Shown piece after piece: positions 2,449 through 17,778 of a stretch of 33,948 bases of DNA (within the stretch, counting starts at the first letter, position 1; each line of letters starts with the position of its first letter). The notes under the pieces are model-generated. The model searched no databases, was not told the DNA's origin, and worked only from the letters and a program-made list of their open reading frames with translations. This stretch comes from Deltaproteobacteria bacterium. Lineage in GTDB: Bacteria; Desulfobacterota; Syntrophia; Syntrophales; Smithellaceae. Made by a program: the position numbers and the translations under genes. Location of the stretch: positions 1 through 33,948 of the forward strand of contig JANYAY010000185.1 in the NCBI GenBank assembly GCA_025361065.1. Direction: 5' to 3'.

Positions 2449-3588
2449 GTGGATGACTTTATGGTAATATTTCTTTTATCGTTTTTATTACTTTACGGCG
2501 GAATTCATCTTTACGCATTTATTCGGATGGACAGCATATTTCATTTTTCCGCCGGGAGTAAAATACTTATTATCTGCCTGCTGATAATTTTGATCTTTGC
2601 TCCACTGTTGGTGCGTATTGCCGAGAGCCGTCATCTGGAATTTTTGGCACGGTCTCTGGCTTACGCCGGATATCTCTGGATGGCTTTTATTTTCCTTTTT
2701 TTCTGCCTCAGTATAATTTTCGATGCAGTAAGATTCACCTTTAAGTTTTTACCCTTTGCGGTTACCGCCGGTCCTTTAATCAATATTACATTCTGCCTGG
2801 CTGTTTCTCTCTCCTTTATTTTTGTCGTTTATGGATACTTTGATGCCCGAGTGATTAGAATTAAAAAGCTGGAAGTCGCCACCGGGCATACCTTGCCTGC
2901 CGGCGGGAAAATTCGTATTGTCCAGATATCCGATGTCCATGTCGGTTTAATCGTCAAAGAAAAACGGTTGCAGGTCCTGATGGATAAAGTAAAAGAAGCA
3001 CAGCCTGATATTTTAATTTCCACGGGAGATTTGCTCGATGGTGAATTAAATAATGTCTCGCCTCTGGCTGCAATATTCGAGCAGGTTAAACCAAAATTCG
3101 GCAAATTCGCCATTACCGGCAACCATGAATATTATGCCGGAATCGAAAAGTCTCTCCAGTTTACCAGGCAGGCAGGCTTTGATGTTCTCCTCGACGAAAT
3201 TAGAGAAGTGGCGGGGATAAATATTGTCGGTATTGATGATATTACCGGCAGAAGAGCTGCCGCCATTGTCAACGAAAATTCCCGTTCGACAAAAACAATG
3301 CCGGTGATACATAATGATAAATTTATCCTGCTGCTGAAACATCAACCCTATGTCAACAAATCCGATAATTTTAATTTGCAGCTCTCCGGTCACACGCACG
3401 GCGGACAGATATTTCCCTTCCGGTTGATAACCGCTCTGTTTTTCCAAAACAACTACGGTTATTATGCCTTGGAGAAAAACAAGTCGCTTTATGTCAGCAG
3501 AGGGGTCGGCACCTGGGGTCCGCCGGTACGGATATTTGCGCCGCCCGAAATTACAGTTATTGATTTGATCGGACAAAATGCAAAGTGA
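2449..3588 (+). CDS. membrane-anchored metallophosphoesterase (YkuE/YaeI-like)
   Basis: 379 residues. The first ~130 hold four hydrophobic segments (about 5-25, 38-57, 70-93, 112-131), then a calcineurin-like phosphoesterase domain. All metal-ligand motifs are visible: D162 and H164 in SDVHVG, D194 in GDLLDG, N225 and H226 in GNHEYY, H298 in LLKHQP, and H315 and H317 in SGHTHGGQ. Related proteins are dinuclear-metal phosphodiesterases or UDP-diacylglucosamine hydrolase relatives acting at the membrane; the substrate here is unknown. The start is uncertain: GTG 2449 or ATG 2461, neither with a clear Shine-Dalgarno sequence and both just after a perfect hairpin. The gene stands alone between intergenic gaps. 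Confidence 0.85.
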   Translation: MDDFMVIFLLSFLLLYGGIHLYAFIRMDSIFHFSAGSKILIICLLIILIFAPLLVRIAESRHLEFLARSLAYAGYLWMAFIFLFFCLSIIFDAVRFTFKFLPFAVTAGPLINITFCLAVSLSFIFVVYGYFDARVIRIKKLEVATGHTLPAGGKIRIVQISDVHVGLIVKEKRLQVLMDKVKEAQPDILISTGDLLDGELNNVSPLAAIFEQVKPKFGKFAITGNHEYYAGIEKSLQFTRQAGFDVLLDEIREVAGINIVGIDDITGRRAAAIVNENSRSTKTMPVIHNDKFILLLKHQPYVNKSDNFNLQLSGHTHGGQIFPFRLITALFFQNNYGYYALEKNKSLYVSRGVGTWGPPVRIFAPPEITVIDLIGQNAK

Positions 3589-3664
3589 TCAGTGAAAATA
3601 ATTCTGAACCAGTCGCCGATGTTTTTTAATCGGATTCCTCAGATTCACAAAGGAGGATCATTGC

Positions 3665-4543
3665 ATGCCGTTTTTTACCACAGATGATGGTGTTCGTCTG
3701 CATTACCGGATGAGCGGTGAAGGCAGGGCGGTCGTGCTGATTCATGGATTAACTGCAAGTTCCCGCCACTTCCAAAAACAGATTCTCGTAATGGCCGGAC
3801 ATTTTAAAATCGTTGCTCCGGATCTGCGCGGCCATGGGGAATCGGGGACACGGCACGACCATCTGACGCTCAAGCGTCTGGCCATGGATTTAAAACAGCT
3901 TCTGGAAGTATTGAATATATCAAAAGCCTCTTTCATCGGCTGGTCGATGGGTGCGCAGGTGATTTTTGAATACATCAGAAATTATTCCTGTAAGGAAATA
4001 GAAAAGATCGTCATCATTGATATGACGCCAAAGCTGCTGAAATCGGCGGACTGGAGCTGCGGCCTGCCGGGTATTTTCAGCAGGAAACAGGGCGATTTCG
4101 GCCACGAGGATAATCTTTATATCCTCTCCGTTATGCTGGATAATTGGGAGGCTTACAGTAAGGTTGTTGCCCGGCGGATTTTAAATAAATCACTATATAA
4201 TGAAAAAATGGAATTCGACGCCGAAGCCTCTTTCAAAGGTAAAGAGGATCTTCCCTGGCTTTACGAGGAGGCAAGAAAAAACAAAGCCTGGGTCGCTGCG
4301 GCTTTTTGGGTTGCCATGGCTATGCAGGATTACCGGCCTGTTTTGGCCAGCATTGATGTTCCCTGTCTTCTGACCTACGGCACGGAAAGCAATTATTATC
4401 CACCCGAAAATTATGAATACATGCAAAAGCAGATACCCAATGCTCGGGTTGTTCCGTTTGTCGGATGCGGCCATGCTTTGCATATTCAGGACCCGGAATT
4501 GTTCAACGAAACGGTGTTGAAGTTTTTGCTGGAAATCAGGTAA
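3665..4543 (+). CDS. alpha/beta hydrolase (haloperoxidase/esterase-like)
   Basis: 292 residues of a classic alpha/beta-hydrolase fold: LIHGLTASSRHF (oxyanion-hole region), APDLRGHGESG, and a nucleophile elbow GWSMGAQ with Ser94. The general-base His is His270 in GCGHALHI. The usual acid aspartate position appears to be Glu241 (YGTESNYY) rather than Asp, which some hydrolases tolerate. There is no signal peptide. The start has an excellent AGGAGG (3651-3656) 8 nt before the ATG. The substrate cannot be told from sequence; it is unlike the hydrolase at 1221 outside the fold motifs, so it is not a recent duplicate. Confidence 0.85.
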   Translation: MPFFTTDDGVRLHYRMSGEGRAVVLIHGLTASSRHFQKQILVMAGHFKIVAPDLRGHGESGTRHDHLTLKRLAMDLKQLLEVLNISKASFIGWSMGAQVIFEYIRNYSCKEIEKIVIIDMTPKLLKSADWSCGLPGIFSRKQGDFGHEDNLYILSVMLDNWEAYSKVVARRILNKSLYNEKMEFDAEASFKGKEDLPWLYEEARKNKAWVAAAFWVAMAMQDYRPVLASIDVPCLLTYGTESNYYPPENYEYMQKQIPNARVVPFVGCGHALHIQDPELFNETVLKFLLEIR

Positions 4544-4549
4544 ATTGTA

Positions 4550-5236
4550 TTATTTTGCCATTCTCTTTTTTGGGGCCTCGTTTACCTCATATTCTCTCAA
4601 ACTCCGCACCATTTCCTGAATTTGATCGGGAAGGGTAGTGATTGGTTTTCCTGTGGAAAGTGCCAAACAATATATATGCGCGACCTTTTCCAGGAGTTCC
4701 GCGGCCAGCAAGGCTTTATCCATATTTTTACCGAGGGCGATTATCCCGTGGTTCTGGATAATGTAAGCGTTGGCGTTATTCCGGAGTTTACCCGCAACGT
4801 TGGCAGCCAGTTCCGCGCTGCCGGAAAGAGCGTAAGGGACAACCTCCACCGATGCGCCGAGGGTAAAAGAGACCTCGTCAAAAAGTGAGGGGATGGGCTG
4901 GTTAAGCACGGCAAAAACGCTGCCGTAAATTTGATGTGTATGAACGACGGCATTTACGTCCGGCCTCGCCCGATAGACGACTGCATGCAACCCGGCTTCG
5001 ACCGAGGGAGCGCGGCTCCCTTCCACCACCACGCCGGAAAGATCGACAATACATATATCTGCCGGAGTAATCTCCTGATATTTTACTGATGACGGTGTGA
5101 CAGCCATCAAATCACTGCCGTCAATTCTCACGGAAACATTGCCGCCGGTGCTCCGCAGGGAACCAAAATAACCGCGTTCCGACAACCAGAGACCAGTCTC
5201 CAGAACTTCCTTTTTATATTGATTATATAATCCCAT
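4550..5236 (-). CDS. class II aldolase/adducin family protein (L-fuculose-phosphate aldolase-like)
   Basis: 228 residues, matching the ~215-residue L-fuculose-1-phosphate aldolase family. Zinc ligands are visible as His99 and His101 (VVHTHQIYG) and His163 (IIQNHGIIALG). Glu80 (PSVEAGLH) matches the catalytic glutamate, and GNVSVR (about 32-37) is the substrate phosphate-binding loop. Such enzymes split a sugar 1-phosphate into dihydroxyacetone phosphate and an aldehyde, or decarboxylate related acids; the substrate is not known. Immediately upstream on the same strand is the remnant of an FGGY sugar kinase (5245-5400), the usual partner that would make its phosphorylated substrate. AAAGGGG lies about 12 nt before the ATG. 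It is convergent with the hydrolase at 3665, six bases apart. Confidence 0.85.
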   Translation of the reverse strand: MGLYNQYKKEVLETGLWLSERGYFGSLRSTGGNVSVRIDGSDLMAVTPSSVKYQEITPADICIVDLSGVVVEGSRAPSVEAGLHAVVYRARPDVNAVVHTHQIYGSVFAVLNQPIPSLFDEVSFTLGASVEVVPYALSGSAELAANVAGKLRNNANAYIIQNHGIIALGKNMDKALLAAELLEKVAHIYCLALSTGKPITTLPDQIQEMVRSLREYEVNEAPKKRMAK

Positions 5237-5244
5237 ATGTCGTT

Positions 5245-5400
5245 TTAACCCCTTTCCCGAAAGTTATTGATTTGACCGGGTGCAGCAAGATGGGTCCAAC
5301 TCCGCTTGGCCATCTTTGTTGCTCCCGTTGCGGGATCCGGCAGGAGAGGGCGTCCCGAGCCGCCGCTCACATCAATTGCCATCAGGTATTGCGTTTTCAT
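5245..5400 (-). pseudogene. N-terminal remnant of an FGGY-family carbohydrate kinase
   Basis: A 51-codon minus-strand reading frame starts MKTQYLMAIDVSGGSGR and continues through DPATGATK to RSWTHLAAPG. This is the pattern of the first ~45 residues of FGGY sugar kinases (for example xylulokinase or LsrK type: YLxAIDxGTGSxRAxxxD ... EWxHxxxPG). Homology then stops and the frame terminates 8 bp before the aldolase start, so more than 90% of a ~500-residue kinase is missing. Replacement of the usual GT by SG in the phosphate loop (DVSGGSGR) is a further sign of decay. It has its own promoter (5433-5461) and AAGGAG (5415-5420), so the fragment may still be translated as the first cistron of the aldolase transcript. 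Confidence 0.65.
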
Positions 5401-5432
5401 AGGTTTGTCCGCAGCTCCTTTTTGCTGGAGGA

Positions 5433-5461
5433 AGTATAAAAATATTGGTTTTGTAAGTCAA
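5433..5461 (-). promoter_or_regulatory. sigma70-type promoter for kinase remnant and aldolase
   Basis: On the minus strand, TTGACT (5461-5456) and TATACT (5438-5433) are separated by exactly 17 nt. The predicted transcript start lies about 25-30 nt before the kinase-remnant ATG. This is one of the best promoter matches in the window. Confidence 0.7.
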
Positions 5462-5804
5462 GACATTATGGTCAGCCGTCTCTTGCCTTCTTTCATCCAA
5501 CTGAGCAGATCCACTCTCCCCATTTTATCCCGGCGTCTGAGGATAATTTATAACATTCATTATTCTACAGACACAAAAGACGGATGATGCAAGATTTGCC
5601 GGCGGCCAAATCTCTCTTGACTTCTCAACGATTTAGGAGCAGACATTAGACGAAATTTATCTGACTGGGGCGTCGTCAACAGAGCCACAACTAACATGAA
5701 TTTTTCAGTATGACCCGCCGTATAAATAGTTGCCGAAACCCTGTCTTTGAAAAGAGGCGGGAATTGTTTTTGGGGAACAAAATAATCGCAGGAGTTTTCT
5801 TCAA
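5462..5804. other. non-coding gap between divergent aldolase and sensor kinase genes
   Basis: Short frames on both strands here lack ribosome-binding sites and any family resemblance. No clear promoter for the plus-strand sensor kinase was found, apart from the GGAG (5791-5794) that serves as its Shine-Dalgarno sequence. Confidence 0.5.
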
Positions 5805-6494
5805 ATGAAAGATGCTGCCAAAACAAAAAGACAGCTTATAAATGAACTCCATGAATTAAGAAAGTCGGCAGTTGATGGGCAAAGCTCCGTAGAGCAATTC
5901 CGGCAACTAAAGGCAAGTGAAGAAAGATATCGCGTCCTGCTGGACGAGTCCACTGATCCCGTCTTCTCTTTCAGCCCGGACGGCCGGTATCTATATGCCA
6001 ACCGTGCTTTTGCCCAAGGAGTGGGAAAGGATATTGACCAGATTATCGGCAGGAATATCTGGGATGTATTTTCCCGGGAGGAGGCGGAGAAACGTTTTGC
6101 CGCTCTGAGCCATGTTTTTCAATCAGGTGAAGAAAAAGTCATCGAAATCCGTGTCCCCCGGTCTGACGGTGACCGCTTCTATATTACGACGATTACGCCG
6201 ATCAAGGACGAGCAGGGGAAGGTCCTCAGCGCTATTTGTTCATCCAAGGAAATTACCGACCGCAAAAGGACGGAAGAGGCACTGCGGCAAAGCGAGGGAA
6301 AGTATTCGGCGATATTTCGCCTCAGTCCCATGAATGTCTCCTTATCCACCTTAGTCGACGGTCGATATGTGGAAGCGAATGATTTATGGTTCCAGACAGC
6401 GGAATATACCCGCGATGAAGTCATTGGGCATACCTCTACGGAACTCAATATATGGGCCAATCCGGAGGATCGCCGGAGGATCGCCGGAGGATGA
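5805..6494 (+). CDS. PAS-domain sensor protein, N-terminal half of a split hybrid histidine kinase
   Basis: 229 residues. A short N-terminal coiled coil (about 1-45) leads into PAS domain 1 (about 40-150, with GRYLYANRAFAQ and a PAC end ICSSKEITDRKR) and the first half of PAS domain 2 (from about 160, with GRYVEANDLWFQ). There are no membrane segments, so sensing is probably cytoplasmic. GGAG sits about 10 nt before the ATG. The frame ends at TGA 6492-6494 inside PAS 2, exactly at an 11-bp tandem duplication. Removing one 11-bp copy joins this frame to the next gene as ...NPEDRRRMTKTIAEGG, a continuous PAS domain, so the two frames were one gene of about 680 codons. Confidence 0.8.
   Translation: MKDAAKTKRQLINELHELRKSAVDGQSSVEQFRQLKASEERYRVLLDESTDPVFSFSPDGRYLYANRAFAQGVGKDIDQIIGRNIWDVFSREEAEKRFAALSHVFQSGEEKVIEIRVPRSDGDRFYITTITPIKDEQGKVLSAICSSKEITDRKRTEEALRQSEGKYSAIFRLSPMNVSLSTLVDGRYVEANDLWFQTAEYTRDEVIGHTSTELNIWANPEDRRRIAGG
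6462..6492 (+). repeat. 11-bp tandem duplication causing a frameshift
   Basis: The unit CCGGAGGATCG occurs at 6462-6472 and 6473-6483, followed by a nine-base partial copy at 6484-6492. Eleven is not a multiple of three, so one unit more or less changes the frame of the sensor kinase. It also creates GGAGG at 6475-6479 and an ATGA overlap at 6491-6494. Confidence 0.9.
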
Positions 6495-7837
6495 CGAAAA
6501 CCATTGCGGAAGGCGGCACGATTCGTGATCAGGAATACCTCTTCCGATCAAAATCCGGCAGGTTATATATACTTTCCTTCACAGCTGCAGTTATTGAAAT
6601 ATCCGGGGTCCCACATATTGTGAGCATAGCTTTAGACATCACAGCACGCAAGAAAATGGAAGAAGAACATCATAAACTCGAGGAACGCCTCCAGCGGGCG
6701 GAAAAGATGGAATCTTTGGGAACACTGGCGGGTGGTGTTGCCCATGATCTCAATAATGTCCTCGGTGTATTGGTCGGCTATTCGGAGCTTCTTGCAGAAA
6801 AGCTGCCCGCAGATAGTTCCCTGAAACGGTATGCCGATAATATACTGGACTCCAGTATGCGGGGAGCGGCAATCATCCAGGATCTTTTGACTCTGGCGAG
6901 AAGAGGCGTAACCATTTCAGAAGTAGTTGATCTGAACAAGGTTGTTTCCGGTTATCTCCGGACGCCGGAGTTTGATAAACTGAAATCATATAATAGGGGT
7001 GTAAAGATTCAAACCGGTTTTGCAGAAGGCCTCCTGAATATCAAGGGATCTCCCATCCATTTAGGCAAGACGATCATGAATCTGGTCACGAACGCCATAG
7101 AGTCTATATCCGGCAATGGTGTGGTGACGATACAACCAGAGAATCGATACCTGGATCAGCCCCTCCCGGGATATGACTACATACAGGAAGGGGACTATGT
7201 GGTCATGACGGTTTCCGACACCGGCAGCGGTATCTCTGCCGCTGACCTGGGCAATATCTTCGAGCCCTTCTATACCAAGAAAGTCATGGGTAGAAGCGGA
7301 ACCGGGTTGGGGTTGGCTGTTGTCTGGGGGACCGTGAAGGATCACCATGGCTACATTGATGTACAAAGTGAAGAGGGTAAGGGGAGCACCTTCACCCTCT
7401 ATTTCCCGGTGACCAGAGATGATCCGGGAAAAGTTGAAGAAGCCATATCTCCTGTTTTCTATGCGAGCAAGGGTGAATCCATTCTGGTTGTGGATGACGT
7501 GCCCGAACAGCGTGGGCTGGCCATGAGCATGTTGGAGCGGCTCGGGTATCAGGTTGAGGTTGTTGCCAGCGGGGAAGAGGCGATTGAATATCTCCAAAAC
7601 AAAAAGCCGGACCTGATAGTCCTGGATATGATCATGGACCCGGGGATTGATGGGATGGAGACATACCGGAAAATAAGGGAAATCAACCCCGGACAAAAGG
7701 CGGTGATCGTCAGCGGCTTTTCAGAGACTGCCCGCGTCAGGGAGGTTCAGGAAATGGGTGCCGGGCCTTTTGTCCGCAAACCATATATCCTGGAGAAGAT
7801 CGGTCTCGCAGTCAGGAAGGAACTGGACCGGAAATAG
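6491..7837 (+). CDS. hybrid histidine kinase with receiver domain, C-terminal half of split gene
   Basis: 448 residues from ATG 6491. The end of a PAS/PAC domain (1-60, ending IALDITARKK) is followed by a HisKA dimerisation helix with phospho-acceptor His85 (GGVAHDLNN). The HATPase_c domain has the N box (NLVTNAIESI), G1 box (DTGSGI) and G2 box (GTGLGLAVV). The C-terminal receiver (about 330-448) has its phospho-acceptor Asp379 (VLDMIMD) and a conserved KP near the end (VRKPY). It would autophosphorylate and pass phosphate to its own receiver; no output domain is present. The ATG overlaps the upstream stop as ATGA, with GGAGG 11 nt upstream, so coupled synthesis of a two-piece kinase is possible. 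Catalytic motifs are all intact, so decay is recent or absent. Confidence 0.85.
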   Translation: MTKTIAEGGTIRDQEYLFRSKSGRLYILSFTAAVIEISGVPHIVSIALDITARKKMEEEHHKLEERLQRAEKMESLGTLAGGVAHDLNNVLGVLVGYSELLAEKLPADSSLKRYADNILDSSMRGAAIIQDLLTLARRGVTISEVVDLNKVVSGYLRTPEFDKLKSYNRGVKIQTGFAEGLLNIKGSPIHLGKTIMNLVTNAIESISGNGVVTIQPENRYLDQPLPGYDYIQEGDYVVMTVSDTGSGISAADLGNIFEPFYTKKVMGRSGTGLGLAVVWGTVKDHHGYIDVQSEEGKGSTFTLYFPVTRDDPGKVEEAISPVFYASKGESILVVDDVPEQRGLAMSMLERLGYQVEVVASGEEAIEYLQNKKPDLIVLDMIMDPGIDGMETYRKIREINPGQKAVIVSGFSETARVREVQEMGAGPFVRKPYILEKIGLAVRKELDRK

Positions 7838-7922
7838 GCCGGGGCGATATCCACTACAAAAGATATTCACTTTTTTTAATTTTTGCCTATTTTATGCGGG
7901 CAGGTGACAACAATAATCGGTA

Positions 7923-7980
7923 ATCAACCATATCGCGAGCGAGCTCACGAGAATTAACACTCGTACCCAAGTGAGCGGCA
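7923..7980 (-). repeat. stop-codon-adjacent palindromic repeat, short copy 2
   Basis: A 58-bp minus-strand copy starting TGCCGCTCAC directly after the TAA stop of purQ (7981-7983) and ending GGTTGAT. It keeps the left palindrome (CTCGTGAGC...GCGA) and lacks the 41 bp between the two GCGAGCTCGCGA-type repeats of the long copies. Confidence 0.85.
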
Positions 7981-8805
7981 TTAGAATTCTTTACTGCGAA
8001 TGAAGTTAACGGCGTTGCGGAAAATCGTGAGACCCTGGCCTTCTTCAGGCAGGTCTTCGCGCGTCCAGCGGGGGTGATTGGTGCGATGCAAATATGCTTC
8101 GGGATGGGGCATTAAGCCAAAAAGCCTTCCCGTTTCGTTACAAATTCCGGCAATCGCCTGGACGGAACCATTGGGGTTGGCTGGATATTCCATCGTCGTC
8201 TCGCCGTCGGCATTGCTATATTGCAGGGCGAAGAGATTTTTCTTTTCGAGCGCGTTTAAAATTTTTGTGCTTTGAGGGATAAATTTACCTTCCCCATGCC
8301 GCACTGGCAGATATAAGACGTCGATATCTTTGGTAAATACGCACGGGCTTTGCTCATTACCCTTTAAATAAACCCAGCGGTCTTCGAAACGTCCGGAATC
8401 ATTAAAAGTAAGGGTTGTGCTTTGCGAGGTGTAATTATTTTTGAGCGCCGGCAGTAATCCCAGTTTCACCATCAGTTGAAAACCATTACAGACGCCCAGA
8501 ATTAATTTCCCGGCATTGATAAAATCGATCAAGTCGGCAAAGAGTATTTCCTTATGTCCGGTAATTCTGGCGTGCAAAAAGCGGTTGGCGCCGGCTTTGG
8601 CCGAGCCCAGATCGTCACCATCGAGAAATCCACCCGGCAAATTTAAAAAGGAATAATCGGCCAGACGCTTTTCCCCGTAGAGAAGTTCACTTAAGTGGAC
8701 AATATCAATTACGTCGGCACCGGCCAGTTTGCAGGCATGCGCCATTTCCATTTCGCAGTTAGTACCGTTGCCGGTTAAAACAATTGCTTTGACTTTACGG
8801 GACAT
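7981..8805 (-). CDS. purQ: phosphoribosylformylglycinamidine synthase, glutaminase subunit
   Basis: 274 residues, a class I glutamine amidotransferase that supplies ammonia to PurL for converting FGAR to FGAM in purine synthesis. The nucleophile is Cys106 in GVCNGFQ, and the His/Glu pair is His234 and Glu236 in MPHPE. The N-terminus (VLTGNGTNCE) and LPGGF with a downstream 'GD' loop are typical of PurQ. It is somewhat longer than the ~225-residue Bacillus-type PurQ and resembles the glutaminase domain of large fused PurL proteins. It lies 16 bp downstream of purL on the same strand, clearly one operon. A palindromic repeat abuts its stop codon. Confidence 0.93.
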   Translation of the reverse strand: MSRKVKAIVLTGNGTNCEMEMAHACKLAGADVIDIVHLSELLYGEKRLADYSFLNLPGGFLDGDDLGSAKAGANRFLHARITGHKEILFADLIDFINAGKLILGVCNGFQLMVKLGLLPALKNNYTSQSTTLTFNDSGRFEDRWVYLKGNEQSPCVFTKDIDVLYLPVRHGEGKFIPQSTKILNALEKKNLFALQYSNADGETTMEYPANPNGSVQAIAGICNETGRLFGLMPHPEAYLHRTNHPRWTREDLPEEGQGLTIFRNAVNFIRSKEF

Positions 8806-8821
8806 AGAATAAATCTCGCTC

Positions 8822-12148: not shown

Positions 12149-12309
12149 CCAAACCTCAAAAAGCAATGGTTTATCATTTCCATTATTGAGTATTAACGGC
12201 CCCGTTTTATATATGGATAAATTTGCAAGAAATTACGGAAACGATAGGCCGGCAGGACGAAGCAATTTGCAAAATAGTCTCAAATAATCCCGGAAGGAGC
12301 AAGAAATTT

Positions 12310-13305
12310 ATGAAGAAATCATGGACCGTTTTATTGTTTGTTTTATTATCGGTGGCATTGGTCGCCTCACCGGTTCTGGCCAAATCAAGCTGGAACGCCA
12401 ACTCCGTTTGGCCCCCCAAGAATCACCAAAGTGCGGGCCTGACTGATTTTGCTGAAAAAGTGAAAAAAGCTACCAACGGTGAGCTGGAAATTGTGGTTCA
12501 CACGGGTGGTGCACTGGGCTACAAGGGCCCGGAACTTCTGAAGACCGTCCGCGATGGTCTCGTTCCGATTTCCGATATGCTGATCAGTGGCGTGGCCGGC
12601 GATGAAAAGATTTTTCAGATTGTAACTCTGCCTTTTCTGGTGCGTGACTTTAAGGAACTGCAGATTCTGCTCGACATTTGCCGACCCTATTTCGATAAGA
12701 CCGCAGAACAAAAATGGAACCAGAAGATCCTCTATATCGCCCCCTGGCCCGGTGCCGGACTCTGGACCAAGAAAAAGATCACCACCCTGGAGGAAATGAA
12801 GGGTCTCAAGACGCGAACCTACGACAAGAACGGCGCACTGGTCATGGAAGCCGTCGGCGCTACGCCTCATGCGCTGCCTTTCAGCGAAGTTTATACATCC
12901 CTCCAGACCGGTTTGATCGACTCCGTCATGACCTCAACGCCCACGGCTGTGGATGCCAAGTTCTGGGAGGTTCTCAAATATTACGAGCCCCTCAACATTA
13001 CCATCGCCACCGACATGGTAAGCGTAAACCTCAAAGCGTTTCAGAAACTTCCCAAGGATCAGCAGAATGCCCTTATAAAAATCGGCAAGGAAATGGAAAA
13101 AGAGATGTGGGCAAATGTCCCCAAACTTGACAAAGCACAGGAGGCCATCTCCAACAAAAACGGTATTGAAACAATTGCCGTCAGCAAGAAGCTGATTGCC
13201 GACCTCGAAAAGATTACGGAAAACATCCGGACGGAATGGCTGAAAACAGCCCCTGCCGAAGGCAAGAAAATCTATAGTGACTTTTTGAAAAAGGTAAAGA
13301 GATAA
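12310..13305 (+). CDS. dctP: TRAP transporter solute-binding protein, DctP family
   Basis: 331 residues. A signal peptide is plain (MKKSWTVLLFVLLSVALVA, cleavage after a VLA-type site near residue 23), so the protein is periplasmic. The body is typical of DctP/TAXI-like binding proteins: FAEKVKKATNGELEIVVH, LKTVRDGLVPISDM, an LPFLVRD stretch, MKGLKTRTYDKNG, and ALPFSEVYTSLQTGLIDSVMTS, which contains the region whose arginine (GLKTR) normally holds the substrate carboxylate. The ATG at 12310 is chosen for its GGAAGGAG sequence; the upstream frame lacks a signal. It is followed by dctQ and dctM. The ligand is probably an organic acid; see pxpABC next door for a hypothesis. Confidence 0.9.
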   Translation: MKKSWTVLLFVLLSVALVASPVLAKSSWNANSVWPPKNHQSAGLTDFAEKVKKATNGELEIVVHTGGALGYKGPELLKTVRDGLVPISDMLISGVAGDEKIFQIVTLPFLVRDFKELQILLDICRPYFDKTAEQKWNQKILYIAPWPGAGLWTKKKITTLEEMKGLKTRTYDKNGALVMEAVGATPHALPFSEVYTSLQTGLIDSVMTSTPTAVDAKFWEVLKYYEPLNITIATDMVSVNLKAFQKLPKDQQNALIKIGKEMEKEMWANVPKLDKAQEAISNKNGIETIAVSKKLIADLEKITENIRTEWLKTAPAEGKKIYSDFLKKVKR

Positions 13306-13330
13306 AATCATTCTCATCAAGAGCGAACCC

Positions 13331-13361
13331 GGGATTCCGGATATTCATTTTCCGGGGTCCC
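13331..13361 (+). terminator. stem-loop between dctP and dctQ
   Basis: GGGA-TT-CCGGA (13331-13341) pairs with TCCGG-GG-TCCC (13351-13361), followed by TTTCT. A processing or partial termination site here would give more binding protein than permease, as is common in transporter operons; that role is inferred. Confidence 0.5.
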
Positions 13362-13463
13362 TTTCTCTGCCCGGACTTTATTTCGGACGGTCTTGGCCGG
13401 CCATCACTGCAAGCGTCGTCCGGCAGCACACTTAAATAATTGTTTTGCTGATAGGACATCACC

Positions 13464-14000
13464 ATGAACAGAATTATAAATATTATCGATGCTCTATCCG
13501 GTGTCGGCGGCTGGTCGGCGGGAGTCCTGATGGCCATCGCCTTCGTCCTGGCCATCGCCGAGATTATCACCCGGAGCTTCTTCGGCGGGACTCTTTATAT
13601 CGCTGATGAGTACTCCGGTTATCTTATGGCTCTGATGACATTTAGCGGGCTCGCCTATACCCTGCGGGAACGCGGCCATATCCGCATGATGTTTCTCGTC
13701 CATATACTGAAAGGCCGGACAAAAACGATCTATAACATGATCTGTCTTGCCGTCGGATTTCTATTCTGCATAGCCATGACCGTGTTTGCCTGGGATTTTT
13801 TCTGGGATTCGGTGGTGAATAAATCCCAGTCCATGCAGCTGTCGGAAACTTATCTGGCTATCCCCCAGGCCATTTTGCCCCTGGGCGCGGCCCTCATGGC
13901 TCTGCAGTTTCTGGCGGAGTTCCTCAAAGGAGTAGCCGTGCTCCGCAACAAAACAGAAGGGTTGCACATTCAAGAGGAAGCAGACGAACTCGGGCGTTAG
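13464..14000 (+). CDS. dctQ: TRAP transporter small permease, DctQ family
   Basis: 178 residues with four hydrophobic segments (about 14-36, 47-68, 92-113 and 130-152), the normal topology of DctQ. The motif RERGHIRM after the second segment matches the conserved 'R-x-x-G-H' loop of the family. It forms the inner-membrane complex with DctM. It lies 158 bp after dctP and 18 bp before dctM in the same orientation. Its Shine-Dalgarno sequence is weak (AGGA about 8 nt upstream). Confidence 0.88.
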   Translation: MNRIINIIDALSGVGGWSAGVLMAIAFVLAIAEIITRSFFGGTLYIADEYSGYLMALMTFSGLAYTLRERGHIRMMFLVHILKGRTKTIYNMICLAVGFLFCIAMTVFAWDFFWDSVVNKSQSMQLSETYLAIPQAILPLGAALMALQFLAEFLKGVAVLRNKTEGLHIQEEADELGR

Positions 14001-14018
14001 AAAAGGGAGAAATAATTC

Positions 14019-15323
14019 ATGCACATTGATCTGGGACCTGCAGCGGCGGTTATTCTGGGCTTACTGCTCCTCTTTCTCGGCGGCTCCGTTTGGATTGGCA
14101 TCGCCCTGTTTCTGGTGGGCATCGGCGGTTTTTTTGTTTTTACCGATATTTCCTTTGGTGCGATCCTCGCCAACATCGTCTGGAACAACACCAGCGGTTC
14201 AGCCATGATGGCTCTGCCGCTCTTCGTCTGGATGGGAGAAATCCTCTTTAGGAGCAAAATTTCGGAGAATCTTTTCCGGGGGCTGTCCCCCTGGATGGAC
14301 TCCATTCCCGGACGCCTTGTGCACGTCAATATCCTGGCCTGCACCTTTTTTGCCGCTGTGAGCGGCTCTTCGGCCGCAACCACGGCGACGGTGGGCAAGA
14401 TCACCGTTCCGGAACTGCATAAGCGGGGTTACGATCATGACCTTTCCATCGGCTCCCTGGCCGGTGCCGGAACACTGGGGTTCATGATTCCGCCCTCCAT
14501 GATGATGCTGGTTTACGGCATTATCGGGGATGTGAGCATCGGTAAACTCTTCATCGCCGGTTTTATCCCCGGCTTTATGATTGCTTTTCTGTTTTCCGCC
14601 TATATCCTGATCCGCTGCCTCATCACGCCGAGCCTCGCTCCCCGGGGTGAGGAACGTTACTCCTGGAAGGATCGCTTCCTGGCCATTCCCGCAATTGCTC
14701 CGGTAGTAATCCTTGTGCTGTTTGTCCTGGGCAGTATCTACATGGGATGGTCAACACCCACCGAAGCCGGCGCCATCGGCGTACTGGGTGCGTTCTTTTT
14801 TGCCGCCCTGACGCGCAGCCTGACATGGGAGGTTTTTAAAGTCAGCCTGCTGGGGACAGTCAAGACCAGTTGCATGATCATGCTGATTGTCATGGGCGCA
14901 TCCTATCTGTCCAACGTCATCGGTTACCTGGGTATCACCAGGGCACTGACGGATTACGTAACCATCCTGAAGCTTTCGCCCTACACTTTGATCATCATTC
15001 TCTCGATACTTTACCTGATCCTGGGCTGCCTGGTCGACGGTTTCTCCATGATCGTCATGACGGCGCCGGTCGTGATCCCCCTCGTTCAAGCGGCCAAGTT
15101 CGATCCTATCTGGTTTGGAATTTATCTTGTTCTGATGATCGAATTGGCGCAGGTTACTCCGCCGGTGGGGTTCAACCTCTTCGTCATCAGCGGCCTGAAC
15201 AACGACAGTATCGGGAAAATTGCCAAAGCCGCTTTTCCTTTTTTCCTTCTGATGCTGCTGGCCACGTTCCTGATCACCGTTTTCCCGGAGATCGTTCTGT
15301 ATCTGCCCAACAAGATGAAATGA
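14019..15323 (+). CDS. dctM: TRAP transporter large permease, DctM family
   Basis: 434 residues, about 12 hydrophobic segments, the normal size for DctM. Family motifs are visible: AVSGSSAATTATVGKI (normally SGSGPATVAAIG), GFMIPPSMMMLVYG, STPTEAGAIGVLGAF and QVTPPVGFNLFVI. This subunit carries the sodium-coupled transport path. AAGGGAG lies upstream of the ATG. It is the last gene of the TRAP operon and is convergent with pxpC, 48 bp away. A small inverted repeat (TGATAT at 15321-15326 with ATATCA at 15339-15344) lies between the two stops. Confidence 0.92.
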   Translation: MHIDLGPAAAVILGLLLLFLGGSVWIGIALFLVGIGGFFVFTDISFGAILANIVWNNTSGSAMMALPLFVWMGEILFRSKISENLFRGLSPWMDSIPGRLVHVNILACTFFAAVSGSSAATTATVGKITVPELHKRGYDHDLSIGSLAGAGTLGFMIPPSMMMLVYGIIGDVSIGKLFIAGFIPGFMIAFLFSAYILIRCLITPSLAPRGEERYSWKDRFLAIPAIAPVVILVLFVLGSIYMGWSTPTEAGAIGVLGAFFFAALTRSLTWEVFKVSLLGTVKTSCMIMLIVMGASYLSNVIGYLGITRALTDYVTILKLSPYTLIIILSILYLILGCLVDGFSMIVMTAPVVIPLVQAAKFDPIWFGIYLVLMIELAQVTPPVGFNLFVISGLNNDSIGKIAKAAFPFFLLMLLATFLITVFPEIVLYLPNKMK

Positions 15324-15371
15324 TATTATTCCGCGGCGATATCATCATGAATCGAGCAATGGAATCAGGTG

Positions 15372-16328
15372 TCAGGATACCCGCCTGCAAACTTGCCTCA
15401 GGGCGGCCAGTCTTTTTTGCCGGTCTTCCCAGAGATGCTCCGCTTCAGCCATTGCAACCAGTTCGAACAGAACATAATCGCCCGGTTGCAAATGGGCCAG
15501 TCGATCCAGATCCGCTCTGATTACCCTGGCGACCCTGGCGTAACCTCCAATAGTCCTCTCATAGAGCATAATAATGGGCAGGCCGTCCCCGGGAATCTGC
15601 ACAGTGCCGGGCAGGATGCCCTCGGAGATGATGCTTTTGTCAACATCATCGCGAAAGGTAAGCGGCTGGCCTTCCAGACGGATGCCCGTCCGGTTAATGG
15701 TCGCCGATACATCATAAACGGAGCGGCCTTTCCTTTCCGCAAAGATTTTTTGCGCAGCATCGGTGAAATAATGATATTCCGGTCCTGCGGTGACGCGCAG
15801 AAGATGGGGGGATTTCATCCCCGGAATCGCATTGCCGGGAATCGCACCCCGGGGAATGTCATAACAATCGTCAATGTTGATCCTGTCGCCGAAGGTGAGT
15901 GCCCGGCCCTTATAGCCGCCAAACCCACACTCCAGATTAGTGGCAAATCGGTCGATGACGCGCTCCAGAGCCATGCTTCCGGCAAAGCCCAGATAGTAGC
16001 GGAATCCTTCTATTACCTCATGAACTTTCAGGATACTGCCTGCTGCCGCCGAAAAAGACATCCATGGGTTCAACGGGTTATCATCCAGAGATGCCCGGAC
16101 CAGTGCGCCCGTTATTGCACAAGTCATGGCCTCGTGAAACCGGAGGGAAAATTGGGCGCCGATGATTTCCAGTGCCGGCGCATGACCATCCTGACCGAGC
16201 AGGCGATTGAGGGCGCCATAGGCAAAGCCATCCAGCGCCGCCGAAGGCGGCACACCCACGGCGGCGTAGCCATAGCGTCCGCTGTCCACGATGCAGGTCA
16301 TTGTTCCCTGATGGATGATTTCAATCAT
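15372..16328 (-). CDS. pxpC: 5-oxoprolinase subunit C (allophanate hydrolase subunit 2/KipA family)
   Basis: 318 residues, matching the biotin-dependent carboxyltransferase-like family to which PxpC and KipA belong. Visible signatures are IVDSGRYGYAAVGVPPSAALDGFAYG near the N-terminus, ALEIIGAQFSL, and DRINIDDCYDIPRGA-type sequence in the middle. The C-terminal motif ERTIGGYARVARVI resembles the usual 'QTTGGYPKIA' segment. PxpABC hydrolyses 5-oxo-L-proline (pyroglutamate) to glutamate using ATP in the cytoplasm. The ATG overlaps the pxpB stop as ATGA (16325-16328). A long antisense frame on the other strand is a shadow. Confidence 0.88.
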   Translation of the reverse strand: MIEIIHQGTMTCIVDSGRYGYAAVGVPPSAALDGFAYGALNRLLGQDGHAPALEIIGAQFSLRFHEAMTCAITGALVRASLDDNPLNPWMSFSAAAGSILKVHEVIEGFRYYLGFAGSMALERVIDRFATNLECGFGGYKGRALTFGDRINIDDCYDIPRGAIPGNAIPGMKSPHLLRVTAGPEYHYFTDAAQKIFAERKGRSVYDVSATINRTGIRLEGQPLTFRDDVDKSIISEGILPGTVQIPGDGLPIIMLYERTIGGYARVARVIRADLDRLAHLQPGDYVLFELVAMAEAEHLWEDRQKRLAALRQVCRRVS

Positions 16329-16996
16329 GCGCTGATATATTTTACCTTGTCTCCAATCTGCAGGAGACTGTAGGGTTCCTTCCCGGGATTGAATAAGCGG
16401 GCATCGGTGCGACCGATGATTCGCCAGCCGGCGGGCGATGGAAAGGGATAAACGCCGGTCTGGCCCTGGGCAATGCCGACGGATCCGGCGACAATTCTGG
16501 TTCGGGGCGTCTCGAGCCTCGGAACATGGATACGCCGATCCAGCGTTCCCATATAGGGAAAGCCCGGAATGAAGCCCACGGCAAAAACGGTATAAATGAC
16601 AGCAGAATGGATGGCGATCACATCGCTCTGGGCAAGTCCCGTCTGCCGGCAGACGACTTTCATATCCAGCGCATCCGGGCCGCCGTAGTGAACGGGAATC
16701 TCATGGAGTGTGGGATCCGGCGTGTTGCCGGTGCAAAGTGATTCGTCCTCTTTTTCCCTGAGCAGTGAAGACAGGCAGGCAAAGTTTGTGAGGCGTGTGT
16801 CGAAGTGGATGAGACAGGACCGAAAGCTGGGGGTAAGATCGATGATTTCCGGCAGGGCCAGCGATCTCATAAAAAAGTAGAAGTTCCTCACTTTTTCATG
16901 AATTTCCAGGTCATAGGTTTCACCAAAGAGTATGCGGATACCGTCTTCACCAAACCGCGAAATATTCATCTGGGATGCAGTCGCCAAAACAGTCAT
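16325..16996 (-). CDS. pxpB: 5-oxoprolinase subunit B (KipI/allophanate hydrolase subunit 1 family)
   Basis: 223 residues. The family signature GFIPGFPYMGTLD is perfect, followed by PRLETPRTRIVAGSVGIAQGQTGVYP (split here for length: PRLETPRTRI and VAGSVGIAQGQTGVYP) and WRIIGRT. The usual GGQTGIYP is GQTGVYP preceded by Q. The start overlaps the pxpA stop as ATGA (16993-16996), and the end overlaps pxpC, so the three are translationally coupled. It works as a complex with PxpC and PxpA to hydrolyse 5-oxoproline. Confidence 0.9.
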   Translation of the reverse strand: MTVLATASQMNISRFGEDGIRILFGETYDLEIHEKVRNFYFFMRSLALPEIIDLTPSFRSCLIHFDTRLTNFACLSSLLREKEDESLCTGNTPDPTLHEIPVHYGGPDALDMKVVCRQTGLAQSDVIAIHSAVIYTVFAVGFIPGFPYMGTLDRRIHVPRLETPRTRIVAGSVGIAQGQTGVYPFPSPAGWRIIGRTDARLFNPGKEPYSLLQIGDKVKYISA

Positions 16997-17778
16997 CGGG
17001 GGATGATTTCTCCCAGAGGCTTTATTTTGATGCCTTCACGCGTGAGGGCATCAACAATCATCCTGGCGGCGGCAATACTTCCCGGATTATCGCCGTGGAT
17101 GCACAAAGTGTCAACATCCACGTCGATCCACCGGCCGTTGATGCTCTCGAAACCCTTCTTCAAGACCATCGCCACGGCTCGCCTTGCTATCAATTCCGGG
17201 TTATTCAGAACGACGCCCGTCTGCTCGCGGGGGATAAGCTCTCCTTCGTCGTTATACTGGCGGTCGGGAAAAACCTCTAAGGCGATGCGCAGCCCCTCGA
17301 GGCTCGCCTTTTCCTTCAATAAAGCGGCTTGTTTTGTAGCCAGCGTCAGAAAGACGGGATTACCGAACGCCTTGCTCAGCCTTTGGACAAGCCCGTAAAA
17401 AAGGTCGGGTTTGCCGACGAGGTCATTGTAAAGAGCGCCATGGAGTTTAATGTGCTGCAAAGACATACCATACATGGATAAAAATCCCTGGAGGGCGCCG
17501 ACCTGATAGACAACGTATTGTTGCAGTTCTGCCTCGCTTATATTCAAAAACCGGCGGCCGAATCCCAGCAGATCGGGATAACCGGGGTGAGCCCCGACAC
17601 CGACATGGTGATCGCGGCACAAACGTACTGTCCGATCCATGACCATCGGGTCGGAGGCATGAAAGCCACAGGCGATGCTGGCCGAAGAAATGGAAAGCAC
17701 CGCCTCGTCATCACGGCCCATGGTGTAGGCCCCGAAAGACTCGCCCATATCGCAGTTGACGTCAATGACATTGGTCAT
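16993..17778 (-). CDS. pxpA: 5-oxoprolinase subunit A (LamB/YcsF family)
   Basis: 261 residues, the standard length. It opens with the family hallmark DVNCDMGESFGAY, then SASIACGFHASDP, VGAHPGYPD and, further on, KLHGALYND. GGGGTGA lies about 6 nt before the ATG. It is the first gene of a tight pxpABC operon on the minus strand. Convergence with a complete TRAP transporter suggests the pair could import and use 5-oxoproline or a related cyclic amide; this is inference from neighbourhood only, since they are on opposite strands. Confidence 0.92.
   Translation of the reverse strand: MTNVIDVNCDMGESFGAYTMGRDDEAVLSISSASIACGFHASDPMVMDRTVRLCRDHHVGVGAHPGYPDLLGFGRRFLNISEAELQQYVVYQVGALQGFLSMYGMSLQHIKLHGALYNDLVGKPDLFYGLVQRLSKAFGNPVFLTLATKQAALLKEKASLEGLRIALEVFPDRQYNDEGELIPREQTGVVLNNPELIARRAVAMVLKKGFESINGRWIDVDVDTLCIHGDNPGSIAAARMIVDALTREGIKIKPLGEIIPR

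Follow-up and report, generated by a model that had tools for sequence, protein, structure and literature searches.

An 11-bp tandem duplication breaks the second PAS domain of a hybrid histidine kinase gene in a Smithellaceae bacterium

We analysed a stretch of 33,948 nucleotides (hereafter the window; positions 1 to 33,948 of contig JANYAY010000185.1, assembly GCA_025361065.1) from a deltaproteobacterium of the family Smithellaceae, whose genome is a 3.95-Mb draft in 186 contigs, the window being contig 20. The window carries a gene for a PAS-PAS hybrid histidine kinase, the frame of which is shifted by a short tandem array inside the second PAS domain. An initial annotation, made from the sequence alone, had described an 11-bp duplication of about 2.8 copies splitting a PAS domain of this kinase. 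The features of the locus, in window coordinates, are as follows (ORF, open reading frame).

5790-5794, + strand: AGGAG, Shine-Dalgarno (SD)-like site at a 10-nt distance from ATG 5805, the presumed start of the upstream ORF; best anti-SD duplex -6.9 kcal/mol
5805-6494, + strand: upstream ORF, 229 aa, with the N-terminal part, intact PAS 1 and the first half of PAS 2
5940-6269, + strand: PAS domain 1, intact (PAS_4, 74.7 bits)
6303-6655, + strand: PAS domain 2, broken by the array (PAS_9 on read-through)
6462-6492, + strand: tandem array CCGGAGGATCG x 2.82, with units at 6462-6472 and 6473-6483 and a partial unit of 9 bases at 6484-6492
6475-6479, + strand: GGAGG, possible SD site at a distance of 11 nt from a restart at ATG 6491; anti-SD duplex -9.5 kcal/mol
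6491-6494, + strand: possible restart ATG (6491-6493) and stop TGA (6492-6494), overlapping as ATGA
6452-7837, + strand: downstream ORF with the second half of PAS 2, HisKA, HATPase_c and receiver; frame open from 6419, in-frame ATG at 6452 and 6491
6716-6904, + strand: HisKA (43.4 bits)
7049-7414, + strand: HATPase_c (81.2 bits)
7481-7804, + strand: receiver domain (Response_reg, 79.3 bits)

The array CCGGAGGATCG, with an 11-bp unit, was found in 2.82 perfect copies at 6462-6492, as the initial annotation had indicated. Tandem Repeats Finder (TRF) gave it 100% matches and the top score among its 10 rows for the window, and it was the sole perfect array in the window with at least 2.5 copies at a period of 7-40. 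Its periodic match run was 20. When 40 windows were simulated from the window's own first-order (Markov) base transitions and scored for periodic match run at period 7-60, none reached 20 (0/40) and the longest run was 13; a chance repeat was ruled out by this simulation. We also scanned 341,607 bases of the same genome (the window plus 18 stretches) for perfect arrays of period 7-60 with at least 2 copies and, in addition, 20 bp or 2.5 copies. The scan returned 14 rows, 7 of which were 7-bp and 35-bp GACTGA-type arrays in contig 76. With the contig 76 rows set aside, the 31-bp array of the window was the longest, and the sole one with at least 2.5 copies. The loci of relatives (58 loci, 208,488 bases; rows from a run of N in L033 left out) contained two perfect arrays of at least 20 bp, 49 bp x 2.0 in L020 and 9 bp x 2.2 in L045, neither of which sits at the kinase site.

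These data bear on the possibility of an assembly or sequencing artefact, in which the true gene would be whole with 1.8 copies. The draft state of the genome, with its 186 contigs, speaks for such an error; however, the 31-bp array fits well within a short read, the 1.8-copy form has a 9-bp repeat only and assembly with words of at least 21 bases would be expected to add no unit to it, and the rarity of comparable arrays in the 341.6 kb examined gives no hint of a general artefact. We consider this explanation very improbable.

Some further arrays were recorded in the same scans. At 4377-4398 of locus L112, GATAAAGAAAG x 2.0 forms an 11-bp duplication lying between frames of 568 aa and 163 aa; it doubles a purine-rich stretch at the start of the 163-aa frame. 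Contig 76 (L117 1509-1977 and 5408-5441) holds 7-bp arrays of GACTGAR type. The pattern GACTGARGACTGARGACTGA had 13 matches in the genome of the window, 11 of them in contig 76 (overlapping matches counted), and 2-4 matches per genome in three genomes of the same genus; the reversed control gave 0. GACTGAR-type arrays resemble the TAACTGA heptamer repeats of Beggiatoaceae (PMC4679880).

The upstream ORF stops at TGA 6492-6494, within the PAS 2 region. HisKA, HATPase_c and receiver lie together in one polypeptide, that of the downstream ORF, and all scored above their Pfam cut-offs, in line with the earlier description of intact kinase and receiver. The kinase's frame contains no whole PAS domain: PAS 1 is in the other ORF, and PAS 2 is split. 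When one unit was omitted in translation, the product read NPEDRRRMTKTIAEGG, the frame was that of the relatives, and PAS 2 scored 33.8 bits to PAS_9 (cut-off 27); removal of one unit thus restores a PAS domain, as had been proposed. The PAS domain of the nearest homologue scored 36.1 bits. The first half of PAS 2 alone (6303-6491) gave 14.3 bits, below the PAS_9 cut-off, and the second half alone (6491-6646) gave no Pfam PAS match. In an AlphaFold2 model built for the PAS domain of the nearest homologue (18 sequences; mean predicted local distance difference test score 93.9), a helix at 54-65 precedes strands at 70-78, 84-96 and 99-108. The break aligns with NPEDRQRM, residues 53-60, within helix 54-65. 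On this model, the upstream piece would retain 2 of the 5 PAS strands and the downstream piece 3.

Relatives were sought in 59 genomes with the read-through PAS 2 plus the start of the kinase as query. Among 71 loci, 20 places had a tblastn match (E <= 1e-8) over the site; the other loci had no match there at this cut-off, and some of these did match the longer query (PAS 2 plus start of kinase). The window itself (L001, L038, L039, L042) was left out of the 20, and L022 and L044, which are one place, were counted once. Two of the 20 places (L002, L007) are paralogues in the window's own genome, L007 being 26% identical. All 20 homologous places were continuous across the site, which agrees with the view that the duplication splits one domain, and none had the repeat. 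Orthologues with separate genes and no duplication were looked for in these places, and none was found. A native gene pair was rejected, because the homologues compared are single frames.

The nearest PAS relatives, L043 and L044, come from the same family but another genus (genomes G034 and G028), and each lies in one open frame, of 963 and 817 aa respectively. Their PAS 2 showed 77% and 73% aa identity to that of the window over 114 aa (70% and 66% over 134 aa), and their kinase half is related, at about 66% DNA identity. When repeat counts were compared, these two held a single copy, TGGGCCAATCC(C/T)GAGGATCGTCAAAGGATG; their sites read TGGGCCAATCCCGAGGATCGTCAAAGGATGGCG and TGGGCCAATCCTGAGGATCGTCAAAGGATGTCG, i.e., the flanks of the window with one unit fewer and no repeat. 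Because all 20 homologous places are continuous and none has the repeat, the comparison indicates that the extra unit is the derived state. Three codons differ from the nearest two relatives: CCC/CCT, CGT and CAA in the relatives are CCG, CGC and CGG in the window. At the site, 18 homologous PAS domains give the consensus EDRQ; Gln is the consensus residue, and the Arg codon of the window is the odd one. A search with residues 1-326 of the read-through protein gave 14 confirmed loci of 74 candidate stretches, the best with 45% identity over residues 35-169; no close orthologue was found in the genome contigs by this query. The site pattern had 0 matches in viral contigs.

With the extra unit taken out, CCGGAGGAT stands in the window sequence as a direct repeat of 9 bp with a period of 11 bp. 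We infer that the three codon changes made this repeat and that slippage at it, with the repeat as seed, added one 11-bp unit. No full-length hybrid kinase would then be made, because the shifted frame meets a TGA inside the PAS 2 helix. The N-terminal piece would retain PAS 1 and lack the kinase. A kinase-receiver piece could arise only via an internal start, most plausibly by restart at the overlapping ATG, and would be without a whole PAS 2 and disconnected from PAS 1. Loss of one unit from the present 20-bp repeat is possible and would restore the gene. A recent, possibly reversible slipped-strand duplication, whose frameshift inactivates the kinase or cuts it off from its sensor, is in our view the probable explanation of the locus. 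Most likely the gene has lost its activity or its connection to the signal, and the change looks like an ordinary loss-of-function mutation, not a novel type of switch.

The stop and overlapping ATGA restart with an upstream GGAGG, as proposed in the initial annotation, were both located: ATGA lies at 6491-6494, and ATG 6491-6493 is in the downstream frame (open 6419-7837). Copies of GGAGG end 0, 11 and 22 nt before this ATG. SD spacing is usually about 5-9 nt, which a spacing of 11 nt exceeds. The RNA around the overlap folds in an ordinary way (z -0.25; 73/200 shuffles at least as stable), so that a special structure there is unsupported. No Rfam family scored above threshold in the window.

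Several observations weigh against an inactivated kinase. The restart GGAGG pairs more strongly than the gene's own site (-9.5 vs -6.9 kcal/mol) and its spacing is near the gene's own (11 vs 10 nt). Because of the ATGA overlap and this strong GGAGG at nearly the gene's own spacing, the kinase half may well be made. Both halves retain open frames, and the kinase and receiver domains are whole.

In favour of the main explanation, pairwise dN/dS (NG86) for PAS 2 was 0.151/1.055 vs L043 and 0.159/0.915 vs L044, and for the kinase half vs the contig 84 paralogue (see below) it was 0.145/1.332. These low values fit a gene under selection for most of its history; they reflect mostly the time before the duplication and say little on the time since.

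One rival explanation is a two-piece sensor, in which translation stops at TGA 6492-6494 and restarts at ATG 6491, and the PAS protein and the kinase-receiver protein act together, or the kinase acts free of the sensor. Such an arrangement would draw on the ATGA overlap, on a GGAGG 11 nt upstream whose duplex is stronger than that of the gene's own start (10-nt spacing), and on the whole kinase and receiver domains. Coupled restart has been measured in H. volcanii, and in E. coli it was strong in 3/5 tested pairs (PMC6728339). However, the 11-nt spacing is longer than usual and the remaining GGAGG copies are at 0 and 22 nt; the split falls inside a PAS helix, dividing the strands two to three between the pieces; and 0/20 homologous places are split at the site. 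Of the earlier suggestion that a two-piece sensor might still be made, the overlap and the well-pairing GGAGG stand, whereas neither half reaches the PAS cut-off. Some restart appears quite possible, and a working two-piece sensor unlikely. A more elaborate version, in which one slippage event creates a coupled two-protein sensor, the repeat units supply both frameshift and SD site, and slippage toggles between fused and split forms, is highly implausible.

A selected contingency switch would require frequent changes of unit number that keep the population always mixed for full-length kinase. As such a switch would have it, a sensor gene carries an uninterrupted 20-bp repeat at 11-bp offset whose unit length is not divisible by 3. 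The 9-bp repeat of Bacillus subtilis gudB reverts, with an apparent frequency that has been compared with the 1e-4 range; the study puts this high frequency down to spontaneous mutation and growth under selection, with a mutation rate that is not raised (PMC3681913). Against a switch in the kinase, there are only 2.8 copies, and the repeat is present in 0/20 homologous places, with no sign of maintenance. In addition, the full-length form would have the 9-bp repeat only, and switching off would be expected to be rarer than switching on. There is very little likelihood, in our judgement, that selection maintains such a switch here.

The proposed loss by slippage may be of little consequence in this genome. 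Of the three other genomes of the same genus compared, G003 alone had matches to both flanks on a single contig: window 3004-4527 and 7974-8820 match G003:C41, where they are separated by 1,064 bp of other sequence.

4528-7973, no strand assigned: segment of 3,446 bp with an aldolase-like gene and the kinase, absent between the same neighbours in G003

Since G003 has other sequence in place of 4528-7973, the kinase is judged to lie in a lineage-variable segment. The G003 replacement has a 226-aa ORF that looks lipoprotein-like by eye. A DNA search of the window's own genome gave 13 matches, the gene itself included, and the closest kinase half, in contig 84, was 76% identical. Because related kinase sequences occur elsewhere in the genome and the segment is missing at the same place in G003, loss of the kinase may cost little. 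The 5' leader and first 38 codons of the kinase gene (window 5736-5918) are 83% identical to contig 109 (L099 2886-3069), where the PAS region after the shared leader matches weakly (26% aa); that this leader is common to several kinase genes is a guess. Further along, window 12223-17778 shows by eye TRAP-type transporter genes followed on the opposite strand by genes resembling a 5-oxoprolinase set.

The main practical point is that annotators should not take the site for two native genes. The locus would be a clean natural example of how few codon changes create a short repeat at which slippage then breaks the gene, with single-copy relatives giving the direction. It would become more interesting only with mixed unit numbers in reads or strains, or with both pieces seen by proteomics; in the case of mixed reads, it would be a sensor-kinase counterpart of gudB, with a shift of frame.

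In the collection of papers searched, none was found on an 11-bp duplication in a sensor kinase, nor any on reversible frameshifts by short tandem duplications in bacteria, and the titles and abstract openings of the related papers retrieved report no kinase split by a short tandem duplication. In phase-variable loci with simple repeats, the coding repeat has a unit length not divisible by 3 and unit number sets the frame; such loci usually have many copies and recur between strains. The kinase array likewise lies in a coding region and has a unit of such a length; however, it has 2.8 copies and is found in 0/20 homologous places. Compared with L043 and L044, PAS hybrid histidine kinases of the same family, the gene has the same PAS 2 and a related kinase half, but its PAS domain is split, whereas theirs is uninterrupted within one open frame (963 and 817 aa). 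It resembles coupled overlapping pairs in its ATGA stop-start and in an SD-like motif inside the upstream frame; in those pairs termination-reinitiation was measured in H. volcanii and E. coli (strong in 3/5 pairs) and removal of the SD motif lowered restart (PMC6728339). Unlike such pairs, which are whole genes, the kinase overlap arose by mutation inside one domain, and the relatives compared carry a single frame where a conserved coupled pair would show two genes. The closest precedent is cryptic gudB (gudB-CR) of Bacillus subtilis 168, whose enzyme is inactivated by a 9-bp duplication and which yields an active allele, at high apparent frequency, when a unit is lost (PMC3681913, PMC4285742). 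Reversion has been measured in gudB and would be predicted for the kinase. The gudB unit of 9 bp adds three amino acids and keeps the frame, whereas the kinase unit of 11 bp shifts it.
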